From contig NZ_JAQNDM010000002.1 of NCBI RefSeq assembly GCF_028368975.1, positions 5,822,425 to 5,886,424 of the forward strand: DNA of 64,000 bases. Direction: 5' to 3'. The notes beneath the pieces are model-generated. The model saw only the letters and a list, made by a program, of their open reading frames with translations. It had not been told where the DNA came from and ran no database searches. Of the stretch, positions 6,808-17,019 are shown in pieces. This stretch comes from Stigmatella ashevillena. Lineage in GTDB: Bacteria; Myxococcota; Myxococcia; Myxococcales; Myxococcaceae. A program made the position numbers and the translations under genes. The stretch's first letter is position 1. Each line of letters begins with the position of its first letter.

Positions 6808-7251
6808 TCAGAGCACCAGGCCCCGGTCCCGGGCCTCCTGGATGAGGGGGGCGGCGTCCCGCTGGAGCCGCTCGGACAGATCGGCGGTGGTGGACGCGAC
6901 GTTCTTGTGCACCGCCAGCCCATCATCATACGTGCGGGTGACGATGAGCATGCCGGAGATGATGACGCGCTGAAGGCTGTTCTGGAGCTCCGAGCCCTCG
7001 ATGACGAGGTGGACCACTTCGCAGTACTTGCGCACGGTGGCCAGGAGGTTGTTGAGGTTGGAGCGCTCGTCGAGGTTGGGCACCTTCACCGTCGCCTCGA
7101 TGGAGGCGACGTAGATGAGGGGCCGGCCCAGGCTCTCCCGGGCCTCGGCGAGCTGGGTGTGCACTTGCGCGACATCGTCCCGGGTCGGCGGCCGGAGGTA
7201 TCTCGCAAAGAAGACGCGGTCGATGATGCCTGCCTTGAAGCCCAAGCCCAT
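6808..7251 (-). CDS. Unknown protein, paralogue of the protein at 9173-9613
   Basis: Function not recognised. The 147-residue product is soluble and predicted alpha/beta. It shares extensive sequence with the product of 9173-9613: both contain DR(V/I)FFARY, PLIYV.SI, KVPN..ER.NLN.LLA and an identical IEGSELQNSLQRV, and both end ARDRGLV plus one residue. The mixed strand/helix order with a buried IEG turn might suit a STAS-like fold, but no catalytic or phosphoacceptor residue can be assigned. ATG at 7251 is chosen because GGGAGG sits 5 nt upstream and it matches the start of the paralogue. It lies 35 nt after the monooxygenase gene on the same strand and is probably in its operon. Confidence 0.8.
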   Translation of the reverse strand: MGLGFKAGIIDRVFFARYLRPPTRDDVAQVHTQLAEARESLGRPLIYVASIEATVKVPNLDERSNLNNLLATVRKYCEVVHLVIEGSELQNSLQRVIISGMLIVTRTYDDGLAVHKNVASTTADLSERLQRDAAPLIQEARDRGLVL

Positions 7252-7286: not shown

Positions 7287-8927
7287 TCACGCAATGGAAG
7301 ACATGCGAGAGGGCGCGGGCATTTCCTCGGGACGTTCCATGGGGAGCGGCCGGATGAAGGCCCGCACCTGTTCTCTCAGCTTTTCGATGTCATCTCCCAA
7401 CGAGGCACCGTAGACGAAACGGTCGGGCCGTACCACCACCGTGTCGGCCTGATTCAGGGAGAACCACGCGGAGAGGTGGCCGCCTTCGTCCACCACATCT
7501 CCACTCCGGGCCTCCCCCGCCCGGGCCGCGGGCAGCACGCGCAGCAGTACCCCGCCCAGATCCTGCGCCAGGGCCTCGGCCGAGCGCCGCACCGGCTCGG
7601 CCGTGTCCGCCATGCAGAGCAGTGCGAAGCGGTTGCCGAACAGGGAGTCCAGCGGCACCTGGGCGCCTCCAGCGATTCTCACCGTGGGCTGGGGGAAGTA
7701 CGTCCCCGCGGGCTGGCCGTTCTTGTGCTTGCCGCCGGCCATGAAGCCATGGGCGAGGACGATGGGCTGTTTGACCTTCCAGTCGCGCAGCAGGAACTGG
7801 GTCTTGGGGTTGCGCCAGATCCACTGCATGATCTTGTTGCGCAGCGCCGCCACGAACTTCGAGCGGGACAGGAAGACACGGCCCATCTTCACGGTGGCGT
7901 TGATCATGTTCACCGCGTGGGGCCGCCGCTCGCGCTCGTAGGTGTCGAGCAGCTCGTCCCCCGCGACGCCCTTCACGGCCAGGGCCAGCTTCCAGGTGAG
8001 GTTGACGGCATCCCGCACGCCCGAGCACATGCCCTGTCCGAGGAAGGGGGGCATCAGGTGGGCCGCATCGCCGAGCAGGAAGACGCGGCCGCTGCGCCAG
8101 CGCTGCGCCACCTTGCTGTGGAAGGTGAACACGGCGGCCCGGACGATGGTCACCAGGCTCGGGTCCATGAAGGCGCCGATAATGCGCTGGACGACTTCCT
8201 TCTTCTCCACCACCTCCGTGCGCTCGTTGCCGCGCAGCAGCAGGTCCATGCGGATCTCGTTCATCGCGCCGCGGGTGGCAAAGCCGGGCCGCTGCGGATC
8301 ACACACGTAATAGGTGTAGACGGGCTCGGGCGTGGGGGTGGTGGCGGTGATGGTGATCCACGGCACGCCGTAAGAGGTGCCCTTCATGGGCACGTTGATC
8401 ATCTCCCGGATGCCGCTGTGCGCGCCGTCACACCCCAGCAGGTAGCGTGCGCGGACCATCCGCTTGCGGCCCGTGAGCCGCTCGGTCATGTAGACCGTGA
8501 CGCCGTCCTCGTCCTGGGTGAAGGACTCCACCTCGTGGCCCATGCGCAGCTCCACATGCGGGAAGCGGCGCAGCGCCTGGCGCAGCATGCCCTCCAGCTG
8601 GGGCTGGCTGAAGAAGGCCAGGGCCGTGTGGCCAAACCCGAAGTCGAGCCCCTTGAAGATGGCCGAGGCGAGCACGTTCCGCTGCCCATCGATGTAATCC
8701 ATCCTCGGGCAGTGGTAGAGATTGACCGCGAGCTCATTGGCCAGGCCCGCCGCTTGGAAGTTGCGCTGCGTCTCGTCGTCGCAGGAGAAGGCGCGCGGCT
8801 GGGTGTGGGCGTGGAGCTCCCGGTCGATGATGAGCGTCCGTACTCCATCCTGTCCCAGGTAGTTGGCGGTGATGCCCCCCACGGGGCCACACCCCACGAT
8901 GATTACGTCAACAGTCTCAGCGGACAT
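7287..8927 (-). CDS. FAD-dependent aromatic monooxygenase (MhpA-like)
   Basis: A class A flavoprotein monooxygenase of 546 residues that should hydroxylate an aromatic substrate using NAD(P)H and O2. The Rossmann motif VDVIIVGCGPVGGITANYLG starts at residue 6, the DG motif is GCDGAHSGIR, and the GD motif GRVFLLGDAAHLMPPFLGQG binds the flavin ribityl and phosphate. The C-terminal 130 residues match the thioredoxin-like tail of the MhpA/PheA group. The closest named family by pattern is 3-(3-hydroxyphenyl)propionate hydroxylase, but no other mhp genes are nearby, so the substrate may differ (polyketide tailoring is possible). ATG at 8927 has GGAG 5 nt upstream; a GTG immediately before it is less well spaced. 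Two small paralogous genes flank it. Confidence 0.92.
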   Translation of the reverse strand: MSAETVDVIIVGCGPVGGITANYLGQDGVRTLIIDRELHAHTQPRAFSCDDETQRNFQAAGLANELAVNLYHCPRMDYIDGQRNVLASAIFKGLDFGFGHTALAFFSQPQLEGMLRQALRRFPHVELRMGHEVESFTQDEDGVTVYMTERLTGRKRMVRARYLLGCDGAHSGIREMINVPMKGTSYGVPWITITATTPTPEPVYTYYVCDPQRPGFATRGAMNEIRMDLLLRGNERTEVVEKKEVVQRIIGAFMDPSLVTIVRAAVFTFHSKVAQRWRSGRVFLLGDAAHLMPPFLGQGMCSGVRDAVNLTWKLALAVKGVAGDELLDTYERERRPHAVNMINATVKMGRVFLSRSKFVAALRNKIMQWIWRNPKTQFLLRDWKVKQPIVLAHGFMAGGKHKNGQPAGTYFPQPTVRIAGGAQVPLDSLFGNRFALLCMADTAEPVRRSAEALAQDLGGVLLRVLPAARAGEARSGDVVDEGGHLSAWFSLNQADTVVVRPDRFVYGASLGDDIEKLREQVRAFIRPLPMERPEEMPAPSRMSSIA

Positions 8928-8948
8928 CACATCTCCGGGAAGAGGAGT

Positions 8949-9172: not shown

Positions 9173-9613
9173 TTAAGACACCAGACCCCGATCCCGGGCC
9201 AGTTTGATGAGCGGGCTGACATCCTTCTTGAGCCGTTCGGCCAGGTCCGCTGTCACCCCGTCGATGCTCTTGTGCACCGCGAAGTTGTCGTAGGTGCGCG
9301 TGAAGATGATCATCCCCGAGATGACGACGCGCTGGAGGCTGTTCTGCAGCTCCGAGCCTTCGATGATGAGGTTGATCGCCTCGCAGTAGGGGCGCAGCTC
9401 CGCCAGCAGCGTGTTGAGGTTGTTTCGCTCCTCGGCGTTGGGGACCTTCGACTTCGAGTCGATGGAGCCGACGTAGATGAGCGGCTGGCCAATCCGCTGC
9501 TGGGCGGCGGCGACGAGCGACACCACCGCGGCGACGGTGTCCTTGGATGGCGGTTGGGGATACCGGGCGAAGAAGATCCGGTCGATCACATCCGATTTGT
9601 ATGCAGTAGTCAC
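9173..9613 (-). CDS. Unknown protein, paralogue of the protein at 6808-7251
   Basis: Function not recognised; 146 residues, soluble. It is a clear paralogue of 6808-7251 along its whole length, with conserved DRIFFARY near residue 10, PLIYVGSI, KVPNAEERNNLNTLLAELRPYC, IEGSELQNSLQRVVISGM and the C-terminal ARDRGLVS. The start is the GTG at 9613: GAGTGAGGG lies 4-5 nt upstream, and the length then matches the paralogue. The open frame continues upstream to 9817 but that part is unlike the other copy. The two copies flank the monooxygenase gene, which may mean a duplication around it or recruitment of one copy into its operon. Confidence 0.8.
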   Translation of the reverse strand: MTTAYKSDVIDRIFFARYPQPPSKDTVAAVVSLVAAAQQRIGQPLIYVGSIDSKSKVPNAEERNNLNTLLAELRPYCEAINLIIEGSELQNSLQRVVISGMIIFTRTYDNFAVHKSIDGVTADLAERLKKDVSPLIKLARDRGLVS

Positions 9614-9779
9614 AACGCCCTCACTCCTCGACAAGTAACGAGGGCCTGGGGCCGCCGGAGAGGGTACGGGCGGTAGAAGGCAAGCCCTCTTCGAGGGCTT
9701 CATCCTGCACCAAGGCGAGGGAAGGTGGAAAGGAAACTCCCCACCCTCCGGAAATGCAGGTTCTACACGGTTGCTGCGC

Positions 9780-11105
9780 TTACTGGGCCGGCGGGCGAGC
9801 CGTCCACAACTCCACATCCCCTACATAGCTGTCCCACTGGCGCAGGGTGCCGTCGGAGGCCACGCGCAGCAGGGTCAGGAAGCGGCGCAGGAGCGTCTCA
9901 TTGTGAAGGTGCTTGGACAGCAGGTCCAGGTTGCCCTGCCAGTGGCCGTCCTCGCCGCCGTCGTACTCGATGTGCGAGCTGAGGAAGCGGGTAGCCTTTT
10001 GTGGGTCCTTGACGCCCCACGAGGCCACGCACGCGTTGAGCTTCTCCATGAAGCCGGGGGCCAGGTGCCCGGTGACGCCTTCGGCCGCCAGGGGCGCGAC
10101 CAGCAGCAGGAGCGGGTCCTGGTAGAAGCCGATGGCGCTCTCTTGCGAGGCCATGAACTGGCGCGAGGGCAGGTTGGGCTGGGCGATCTCCTTCACGTAC
10201 GTGGGGTTCTCGCCCAGGTGCTCCAGGTCGCGCTCGATGATGATTTCGTGGTTCACCTCACCGGTGAGGTGGCTGATGAAGTGGGTGCGCAGCTCGGTGG
10301 TGGGCGAGTAGCCCACGCAACGGCCCAGCAGCCGCGTGGTGAAGCGCACGAACAGGTGCAGTTGGGTGAGCGCGTAGATGTACTGCTCACGGGTGAGGGT
10401 GCCTGCGTCCACCGAGGTGAAGAAGCGCGCGCTCATCACCGGGGTGAAGAGCTGGTGCTGCAGGGTGTCGAGAATCTCGTGCACGAGGAACGACGGGGAC
10501 AGGGGCTGTCCGGCCTGGGCGGCCTCCTCGGAGGTCTGGTGCAGAAGAAGGTCCAGGCGCTGCGACTTGGCGCGGAAGGCGCCCTTGCCGGGCACGTCCA
10601 CGCGCGCCACGTTCCCCAGGCTCACGAGCCCATAGCGGCGCGCGGTGGGGGTGTCATCGTCCGTCATCAGGAAGGCGGCCACATCCCGGCCCCACGCGCG
10701 GGCGGTGCGCAGCGCGGCGTACATCAGAACGGCCTGGGTGCCCGCCGGGGCATCCGGGGCCACGTGCACGCGGGTGAAGTAGGCCGCGCGCTCCAGCGCG
10801 CTCGAGGCCAGGCGGGTGCGCGTCTGAAAGTCCGAGCCTTCCGCGGCCAGCACGCTGGCGAAGGCCAGGGCCCGGCCCGAGGCGCGGTCTACCACCGCCA
10901 CGTCTTGGCCCAGGGTGTGGCCGAGGCTCTCGGGCGCCAGGAACTCCGCGGCCGCGGACGTCGCCAGCGGCGCGAGCAGGGACGGTTGGGCTTGCGGAGT
11001 CCGCTCGATGACCACATCCAGCTTGTCGGTGGCCTTGTACGTCACCACTTGGGGCCTTGCCCGGGTCTGCCAGAGAGGGGAAGACTTCGACTGGGTAGCG
11101 GTCAT
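9780..11105 (-). CDS. GNAT-like/haem-oxygenase-like diiron oxidase fusion
   Basis: A 441-residue two-part protein. Residues about 20-190 look like a GNAT or FeeM-type acyltransferase (YFTRVHVAPDAPAGTQAVLM and a following helix and strand). Residues about 200-435 match the iron-containing redox enzyme/HDO group of haem-oxygenase-like diiron proteins: a helix with E283, H286 and E287 (TGEVNHEIIIERDLEHLG) and a late helix with H378, E380, D382, D386 and H388 (SSHIEYDGGEDGHW) could supply the metal ligands. Known HDO relatives perform N-oxygenation, desaturation or decarboxylation of small molecules; the reaction here is unknown. ATG at 11105 has AGGAG 8 nt upstream. A nested palindrome (11169-11221) occupies its promoter. 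Confidence 0.8.
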   Translation of the reverse strand: MTATQSKSSPLWQTRARPQVVTYKATDKLDVVIERTPQAQPSLLAPLATSAAAEFLAPESLGHTLGQDVAVVDRASGRALAFASVLAAEGSDFQTRTRLASSALERAAYFTRVHVAPDAPAGTQAVLMYAALRTARAWGRDVAAFLMTDDDTPTARRYGLVSLGNVARVDVPGKGAFRAKSQRLDLLLHQTSEEAAQAGQPLSPSFLVHEILDTLQHQLFTPVMSARFFTSVDAGTLTREQYIYALTQLHLFVRFTTRLLGRCVGYSPTTELRTHFISHLTGEVNHEIIIERDLEHLGENPTYVKEIAQPNLPSRQFMASQESAIGFYQDPLLLLVAPLAAEGVTGHLAPGFMEKLNACVASWGVKDPQKATRFLSSHIEYDGGEDGHWQGNLDLLSKHLHNETLLRRFLTLLRVASDGTLRQWDSYVGDVELWTARPPAQ

Positions 11106-11168
11106 GGGAGCACTCCTGGGAAGCAGCGAGTAGGGGAGGACTGGAGGCCCCATTATCGACGACATCCT

Positions 11169-11221
11169 GGATCAGATTTCAATAGAGGCGTGAAATTTTC
11201 ACACCCCCACTATTCTGATCC
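11169..11221. promoter_or_regulatory. Nested double-dyad operator upstream of HDO fusion gene
   Basis: Three concentric inverted repeats share one centre region. The outer arms are GGATCAGA (11169-11176) and TCTGATCC (11214-11221), a perfect 8-bp match. The middle arms are AATAG (11181) and CTATT (11210). The inner palindrome is GTGAAATTTTCAC (11190-11202), 6-bp arms around one T. It lies 64 nt or more upstream of the ATG at 11105, an unusually AT-rich patch for this genome, and is a likely regulator-binding site. Confidence 0.65.
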
Positions 11222-14885: not shown

Positions 14886-14955
14886 ACCGCAGAACCGTGT
14901 TATGAAATTGTTCTGCTATAACGAAAAAGTATTTTCCATCGGTCACGGAGCTCCC

Positions 14956-17019
14956 ATGCAGGCGGACAACCGGATGTCGACCCGTGAGTCAATTCTGGGC
15001 TACCGGATGGGAACGGCGTTGTCGGCGGTCGCCTCCTTTGGCGATGAGCAAGGCTCCGAAGGTCGGCTGGTGCAACTGTCGCTGGAGCATCTGACGCTGC
15101 ACATGGCCTCCTGCACCTCGCTGCGCCCGGGCCAGGCGGCCTCGGTGGTGCTGGGGCTGGGCAACCGGTGCACCCCGTCGCTCCAGGCCGAGGTGATGGA
15201 CGTCTCGATGGGTGGCCCCGAGATGTCGCCCGAGCTGAGCCTGCGCTTTGTCGCGCCCCCCCTGGACACGGGTCGGCAGATCGTCTCCGCCCTGGAGATG
15301 CTGCGCGAGAACGGCCACCTGGTGGTGCCCGAGGCCCGGCCGGTGTGGAAGGAAGTCATCACCCGCGAGGAGCGCATTCTGCGCATCAGCGAGGCGCTGG
15401 CGGCGCGCAGCACGCGCGGCGTGGCGCGGCTGGAGGATGGCACCCGCGTGGAGGTCCGCGCGGCGCTGTTCGACAAGTACGATGGGACCATTGGCTGGGC
15501 GGCCGAGGTGCCGCTGCCCGCGCGCCCCTTCACCATGGAGGCCTTCGGTTACAGCTCGGTGCTGCACTTCCGCGTGGATCAGGCGCGTGAAGAGGGCGGG
15601 CTGTGGGTGATGCCGCTGCCGGTGGAGCTGACGCGCTTCCGCCACCGCTGGCTGCGCCGCGCCCCCATCACCATCGACTGTTTCCTGTCCTTCAACCACC
15701 CGCTCTGGCCGCAGGTGAGCGTGCGCCGCTCGCTGATGGACATCTCCTATGAGGGCTTGTCCTTCATGACGGAGCCCGGTGAGGACCTGCTCTACCCGGG
15801 CATGCGCGTGCCGGTGATGGAGGTGGAGATGCCCAACCGCGCCCCGGTGAAGCTTCTGGCCGAGGTGCGCAACATCTCCACCACCCCCAAGGGCCGCCGC
15901 TGCGGCATGTGGGTGTGTCCCATCAACGAGGAGCAGGGCCTGGCCTGGCGCGCCATGGTGGAGGAGCAGATCCACCCGCGCACCCGCACCTCCGGCGACT
16001 GGAACGACGCGGTGTGGGACATGTACGAGAAGTCCGGGTACTTCCGGCTCTCGGGCAAGGATCCGACGAAGTTCGACGCCTTCAAGCGCGAGTTCTACGA
16101 GACGCAGAACAAGCTGGTGGGCCGTCCCCGCCTGGGCTTCCGCATCGTGAAGCCCCTGGATGGCTCCAAGGTGGAGGCCTCCATCTCGGTGGCCAAGCCC
16201 TACGGCACCAGCTGGATGACGCACATGGTGGCGCGCCAGCACCCGACTGGGCCCGAGGGCAAGAAGGCCTCGGCGCGCGAGGCGCTGCGCGACATCTACC
16301 TGCGCGGCTACGAGCCGGCGCAGCTGGACCCGGAGGTGAAGTGGTTCTTCGGGTACTTCGAGGCGCGCGTGCGCTGGTCGCGCTACGCGATGTTCGACTT
16401 CGCCCAGTGGTACGAGCACACCGGGCAGTCGGCCGCGATCGACTTCCGGCTGATGGAGGGCGAGACGGACCGCGCCTGGGAGCCCATCCCCGAGGGTGTG
16501 GACGTCGGCCAGCCCACGCCGGACGAGCTGGCGGTGTTCTTCAAGCACGTGGAGCAGACCAAGCCCCTGGCGTTCCGCGAGGCGCTGGACCTGGTGCCCG
16601 AGCGCTTCGACATGCAGGCCACGCGCGCGCTGTGGGACAGCGCCAAGCTGTCGCGTGAGCGCGAGGTGTTCGTCGCGCGCGTCGGTGGCAAGCCGGTGGC
16701 GGTGGGCATCGCCGAGACGGCCACCCCGGGCTTCAACCTTTTCCAGATCCTCGACAGCGTGCGCATCATCCCGCTCATCGAGGACACGCGGCCCGAGGCC
16801 CAGCAGGGCATGTTCGGGTTGCTCACGCGCGCCGCCGAGTGGTTCCGCGAGCGCAACCGCCGCCTCTTCATCCACTACGTGGAGTGCACCAACGTGGAGT
16901 ACGCCGAGCGCGCCGCGCTGGCGGACCTGGGCGAAGGCGTGCTGTGGATCATCTCCGCCGGCCTGCTGCCCGAGTTCCTCGAGCACCTGTGCGAGGCCAC
17001 CACGCCGCGCGCCGAGTAG
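14956..17019 (+). CDS. PilZ domain protein with C-terminal GNAT-like domain
   Basis: A 687-residue cytoplasmic protein likely to bind cyclic di-GMP. The clearest PilZ signature is RHRWLRRAPI followed about 45 residues later by DISYEGLSF, which fit the RxxxR and (D/N)xSxxG motifs. The first 110 residues look like a second, degenerate PilZ-like unit (VQLSLEHLTLHMASC to LSLRFVAP). A middle region (about 330-480) is unassigned, and the last 200 residues resemble a GNAT-type acyltransferase (REREVFVARVGGKPVAVGIAE and QQGMFGLLTRAAEWFRERN). ATG at 14956 has GGAG 5 nt upstream; an ATG 54 nt earlier has none. It is monocistronic and divergent from a Ser/Thr kinase. It may be an output of c-di-GMP signalling in motility or development, by inference. 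Confidence 0.85.
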   Translation: MQADNRMSTRESILGYRMGTALSAVASFGDEQGSEGRLVQLSLEHLTLHMASCTSLRPGQAASVVLGLGNRCTPSLQAEVMDVSMGGPEMSPELSLRFVAPPLDTGRQIVSALEMLRENGHLVVPEARPVWKEVITREERILRISEALAARSTRGVARLEDGTRVEVRAALFDKYDGTIGWAAEVPLPARPFTMEAFGYSSVLHFRVDQAREEGGLWVMPLPVELTRFRHRWLRRAPITIDCFLSFNHPLWPQVSVRRSLMDISYEGLSFMTEPGEDLLYPGMRVPVMEVEMPNRAPVKLLAEVRNISTTPKGRRCGMWVCPINEEQGLAWRAMVEEQIHPRTRTSGDWNDAVWDMYEKSGYFRLSGKDPTKFDAFKREFYETQNKLVGRPRLGFRIVKPLDGSKVEASISVAKPYGTSWMTHMVARQHPTGPEGKKASAREALRDIYLRGYEPAQLDPEVKWFFGYFEARVRWSRYAMFDFAQWYEHTGQSAAIDFRLMEGETDRAWEPIPEGVDVGQPTPDELAVFFKHVEQTKPLAFREALDLVPERFDMQATRALWDSAKLSREREVFVARVGGKPVAVGIAETATPGFNLFQILDSVRIIPLIEDTRPEAQQGMFGLLTRAAEWFRERNRRLFIHYVECTNVEYAERAALADLGEGVLWIISAGLLPEFLEHLCEATTPRAE

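Follow-up and report, generated by a model that had tools for sequence, protein, structure and literature searches.

A minus-strand gene in the 64,000-nucleotide stretch of Stigmatella ashevillena DNA analysed here (the window) was found to encode a protein of 441 amino acids, the length given by an earlier sequence-only reading. Its two halves are a predicted GNAT-fold module and an HDO-type (haem-oxygenase-like) domain. The open reading frame runs from an ATG at 11105 to a stop at 9780. A longer reading of 461 aa from the ATG at 11165 exists, and the shorter start was preferred because the homologues begin there in the alignment (MTA...) and because a -10-like hexamer that is kept in the homologues falls inside the longer reading.

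9780..11105, minus strand: fusion gene (GNAT-fold/HDO), 441 aa, from the open reading frame and homologue alignment
10506..11051, minus strand: N-half, predicted GNAT-fold module, residues about 19-200, from VIA-align and the LPG_synthase_C profile match
9798..10499, minus strand: C-half, HDO-type domain, residues 203-436, from hhalign to stand-alone PF14518 proteins
11113..11117, minus strand: likely ribosome-binding site AGGAG, read from the sequence upstream of the ATG at 11105

Pfam and NCBIfam searches with the whole fusion protein gave zero matches. The sequence-only reading had proposed looking for the fusion in other genomes; among the 145 of the order, 8 carry it, all Myxococcaceae and always as one fused gene. 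Seven carriers belong to the genus of the window (Stigmatella) and one to another genus of the family; Hyalangium versicolor and a Myxococcaceae MAG are among the eight. Genome searches found no split (unfused) copy of the N-half, and searches of plasmids, phages and viral contigs did not find the fusion. Further viral scans found no distant HDOs in viral contigs. Close genome pairs showed purifying selection on both halves, with the N-half diverging faster than the C-half (pN/pS 0.16 and 0.04, respectively, in the closest pair). We found no literature on a GNAT-HDO or FeeM-HDO link in a search whose coverage excluded most subscription journals, and could not find the combination of an acyltransferase-type fold and an iron-dependent oxidase in one protein described.

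Upstream of the gene, a TTGAAA-N19-GATAAT-like promoter (spacer counted from the sequence) is common to all eight fusion upstream regions. The promoter scan does not report this pair of hexamers because the 19-base spacing exceeds its limit.

11152..11157, minus strand: -10-like hexamer GATAAT, in all eight upstream regions
11177..11182, minus strand: -35-like hexamer TTGAAA, from the upstream alignment; TTGGAA in the most distant genome
11190..11202, no strand: inner inverted repeat GTGAAAtTTTCAC, from the repeat search
11169-11176 and 11214-11221, no strand: arms of the outer inverted repeat GGATCAGA / TCTGATCC, from the repeat search

Three concentric inverted repeats had been described here and taken to suggest tight control by a nested palindromic promoter. 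The three repeats exist as strings, with differing centres at 11195.0, 11196.0 and 11197.5, and the best same-centre set was no better than chance, being equalled in 9% of shuffles and 18% of window 90-mers. The outer repeat is conserved in no genome beyond one near-identical one, and two of the four closest genomes have altered left arms in the outer and middle repeats but an intact inner GTGAAAATTTCAC. Only the inner repeat, GTGAAAwTTTCAC, is retained in the four close genomes; it is gone from the four more distant ones. The promoter is judged ordinary, and tight control through nested palindromes is not supported. The inner repeat could be a local operator. A regulon for it was rejected, as a search of the 10.95 Mb genome found this single copy and no second one.

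Downstream, on the same strand, the fusion gene is followed by three genes, with no terminator-like sites between them.

9173..9616, minus strand: 147-aa protein, next gene of the likely operon, beside the fusion gene at seven of the eight loci
7287..8930, minus strand: FAD-dependent aromatic hydroxylase-type monooxygenase, 547 aa (PF01494, 2e-75)
6808..7251, minus strand: paralogue of the 147-aa protein, sharing about 61% identity with it

The fusion is the first gene of a likely operon that also encodes the FAD hydroxylase and both 147-aa proteins. The monooxygenase also matched NCBIfam PRK06183.1-3 above the cut-off, in the 3-(3-hydroxyphenyl)propionate hydroxylase subfamily; the first 147-aa protein gave no Pfam match above the cut-off. 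Seven of the eight fusion loci have the monooxygenase gene, and none is without a 147-aa gene. Locus L013 lacks the first 147-aa gene between the fusion and the monooxygenase and has a membrane fatty acid desaturase there instead (L013:3896-4948; PF00487, 2e-31). The 147-aa family is also found in many other Myxococcaceae with other neighbours. Behind one homologue in a Myxococcaceae genome (L079:6981-8193, genome G043) comes a protein of 225 aa that matches Acetyltransf_5 below the threshold (E 0.076), a further association with a GNAT-type protein.

The C-half is well supported by its sequence as an HDO-type domain, which agrees with the earlier assignment. Profiles of the fusion C-halves matched stand-alone myxobacterial proteins in hhalign (96.5%, E 8e-10), and these relatives belong to PF14518, iron-containing redox enzymes (5e-17). 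The profile of the relatives in turn matches UndA and the HO-like protein 3dde. The relationship to PF14518 was detectable only through the stand-alone relatives: the direct Pfam search was negative, a direct profile comparison of the C-half with UndA, made without intermediates, was insignificant, and the C-half profile found no match among PDB sequences. A phmmer search gave weak TenA matches.

Dimetal HDOs are defined by an E-H-E-H-(D/E)-H ligand motif (3H/3C) on three core helices (PMC11363339, PMC13108848). When five fusion C-halves, four stand-alone HDOs, UndA and 3dde were aligned, the complete E-H-E-H-D-H set was found as E283, H286, E342, H378, D382 and H388. These six residues and G298 were the sole invariant columns of that alignment, and the six ligands are invariant in all eight fusions. 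The five ligands of the sequence-only reading (E283, H286, H378, D382, H388) were all among them; its list had omitted E342.

10257..10259, minus strand: codon of E283, predicted alpha1 ligand, aligned with the UndA ELNH motif and invariant in the eight fusions
10248..10250, minus strand: codon of H286, predicted alpha1 ligand by alignment, invariant in the eight
10080..10082, minus strand: codon of E342, predicted alpha2 ligand (AAEGVTG against AIEGATG in UndA), invariant in the eight
9942..9974, minus strand: predicted alpha3 ligand segment H378-x3-D382-x5-H388, from the alignment and invariance in the eight

The alpha3 segment reads H-x3-D-x5-H in the fusions and H-x3-D-x2-H in UndA and the stand-alone HDOs. 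All eight fusions have a three-residue insertion between D382 and H388 (GGEDG or GGDDG); how alpha3 aligns depends on where the aligner put the gap. With the longer spacing the three ligands would not all lie on the same side of an unbroken helix, and the low-confidence model of the C-half breaks the helix at this segment.

For the N-half, the only sequence relative outside the fusions was LPG_synthase_C, which is the catalytic portion of aminoacyl-lipid synthases of the MprF type. Residues 112-185 matched it in hhalign (79.7%, E 1.5e-5) with a score of 42.4, compared with a maximum of 22.7 in 200 column shuffles. In whole-genome searches with the N-half, LPG_synthase_C proteins were the best outside matches in about 20 other genomes, at the same residues, and a PDB sequence search gave one chance match only. 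Structure searches were made with a three-sequence AlphaFold model of the fusion (pLDDT 42, low confidence) and an all-helical model of the C-half (pLDDT 53, low confidence). With the low-confidence fusion model, all of the 50 top VIA-align rows were GNAT-fold proteins, covering residues 19-216 at Z 6.6-8.0, and the longest alignments to the N-half were given by the AHL synthases TofI (Z 8.0), EsaI (7.5) and RpaI (7.0); a Z near 8 is by itself weak evidence. The same search with the C-half model returned unrelated helical proteins at the top, with Z below 7. Foldseek gave no match at E < 0.001 with either low-confidence model; with that of the C-half, TenA, PqqC and HDO chains headed the list, none below E 0.01.

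The fold search and the LPG_synthase_C profile both point to GNAT-type proteins, and together they support the N-half as a predicted GNAT-fold module. The half had been described as GNAT or FeeM-like, and the first part of that description was retained. Homology to FeeM was rejected, since hhalign gave a probability of 0.1 against the FeeM-like set and there was no sequence match. The GNAT CoA pyrophosphate loop (Q/R-x-x-G-x-G/A) has no conserved match in the N-half, where the equivalent loop reads A-P-x-G-T, and the catalytic Glu of FeeM and AHL synthases is absent, its position holding Tyr, Trp or Phe109. FemX-type enzymes use a catalytic Lys (PMC12945691); this too is absent, with an invariant Arg178 at the aligned position. 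As all three signatures are lacking, transferase activity of the N-half is only putative. The homologue alignment showed invariant polar residues at R112, D149, D150, R168, K180 and R183. Elsewhere in the window, a 705-aa protein (14902-17019) combines a PilZ domain with a C-terminal part that has a weak GNAT (Acetyltransf_6) match, and it is 95-98% identical in three close genomes.

The stand-alone relatives of the C-half have a characteristic neighbour. Immediately upstream, 83 of the 96 have a gene for a FeeM-like N-acyl transferase; the pairs occur in 59 genomes, with intergenic gaps of 71-152 nt. Examples were seen at L082:7790-9432, L083 and L085-L089, and genome G083 carries both the fusion and such a pair. 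The one FeeM-like gene tested matched PF21926 and PF13444 above the cut-off, and the FeeM-like transferases paired with stand-alone HDOs keep their catalytic Glu. A GNAT-type enzyme followed by this type of HDO is thus a repeated pairing. Since the N-half of the fusion is not recognisably FeeM, the fusion and the FeeM-HDO pairs look like separate GNAT-type/HDO pairings. This recurrence provides the best indirect evidence for linked two-step chemistry, from a GNAT-type step to an HDO step. Many of the stand-alone HDO matches contained an in-frame TGA, for which selenocysteine was considered and rejected, as translation of two loci showed a natural gene stop.

HDOs carry out many unusual oxidations, and several known systems resemble the fusion in part. 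UndA, a fatty-acid decarboxylase HDO (PDB 6P5Q, 4WWZ), has E-x2-H, AxEGxTG and HxxxD...H motifs that match the six ligands of the fusion, but it is a single-domain protein, and the fusion adds the GNAT-fold half and three residues between the last two ligands. SznF and FlcD are, like the fusion, multi-domain HDOs with an N-terminal domain, but PMC11363339 describes this domain as a superhelical linker, whereas that of the fusion has a predicted GNAT fold; moreover, SznF has a seventh ligand and FlcD is without two, whereas the fusion keeps six. The GNAT-fold aminoacyl-tRNA transferases of the LPG_synthase_C/MprF and FemABX type, and also VlmA, share with the N-half the profile over residues 112-185 and an F-(K/R)-x-K tail motif. 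LPG_synthase_C and FemABX enzymes have two GNAT modules and a catalytic Lys, whereas the fusion has one module of about 200 aa and Arg178, and it is without the membrane part of the MprF-type enzymes. FeeM and AHL synthases resemble the N-half over its whole length in the structure search, but not in sequence. The FeeM-HDO pairs of the Myxococcaceae place a GNAT-type transferase before a related HDO in the same order as the fusion, but as separate genes, and the N-half gives no match to the FeeM-like profile.

On balance, we favour by a little the view that the fusion is a two-domain metabolic enzyme, in which an HDO oxidase is joined to a GNAT-fold module and works on an acylated or carrier-held substrate. 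The analysis shows the fusion and its conservation, the aligned ligand set, the GNAT-type relationship of the N-half and the order of the genes; the metals bound, the substrate, any transfer by the N-half and the pathway we infer as follows. The C-half would be a dimetal, most likely diiron, oxidase or oxygenase in which E283, H286, E342, H378, D382 and H388 activate O2. The N-half would most likely bind an acyl or aminoacyl group and might also transfer it, and the oxidase half would act on an acylated or carrier-held substrate of the amino- or fatty-acid type. The protein would be produced together with the FAD aromatic-type hydroxylase and one or two 147-aa proteins. Loading or release of an acyl group by the N-half may be part of this, an idea favoured by the FeeM-HDO operons of other members of the family. 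More tentatively, and with rather less than even confidence, we propose that a divergent GNAT-fold acyl or aminoacyl transferase and an HDO with a modified alpha3 make an unknown oxidised, acylated or aminoacylated product, in parallel to an uncharacterised FeeM-HDO pathway of the Myxococcaceae.

It is somewhat unlikely that only the oxidase half is active and that the GNAT-fold half is catalytically dead, serving in substrate docking, carrier binding or dimerisation. The missing CoA-loop motif and FeeM/AHL Glu, Arg178 in place of the Lys of LPG_synthase_C and FemX-type enzymes, and the faster evolution of the N-half are in line with such a role, as is the N-terminal linker domain of the HDOs FlcD and SznF (PMC11363339). 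However, R112, D149, D150, R168, K180 and R183 are invariant, and the stand-alone relatives of the C-half are partnered by FeeM-like transferases in which the catalytic Glu is intact. We consider it unlikely that the C-half keeps the fold but, owing to the alpha3 insertion, holds one metal or a different one and performs other chemistry. The insertion is conserved in 8 of 8 fusions, and FlcD, which works with a single iron, shows that changes in alpha3 can shift nuclearity; on the other hand, the fusion keeps all six ligands, two of which are replaced in FlcD, and the spacing of the last three varies across HDOs (PMC11363339). A metal-free enzyme of the TenA/PqqC type in place of an oxidase appears very improbable: the nearest Foldseek chains and the weak phmmer matches point that way, but the invariant, complete E-H-E-H-D-H set aligned with UndA and the PF14518 membership of the relatives argue against it.

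Only about a dozen HDOs have been characterised (PMC13108848). For the two-domain enzyme that we favour, the fusion and the FeeM-HDO pairs of 59 genomes suggest concrete substrates, namely acylated or aminoacylated amino or fatty acids, and the unusual alpha3 site offers a place to test what governs the metal centre. Other long PF14518 proteins of the order were searched for a GNAT fusion, which was found in none of 12 loci; several were HDO-cupin proteins or N-extended HDOs, with L094 and L100 looking like HDO-cupin fusions. At L090 and L091, long PF14518-type proteins adjoin membrane desaturase-like genes. Across the order, 96 of 142 genomes contained PF14518, and genome G000 alone had ten matches.
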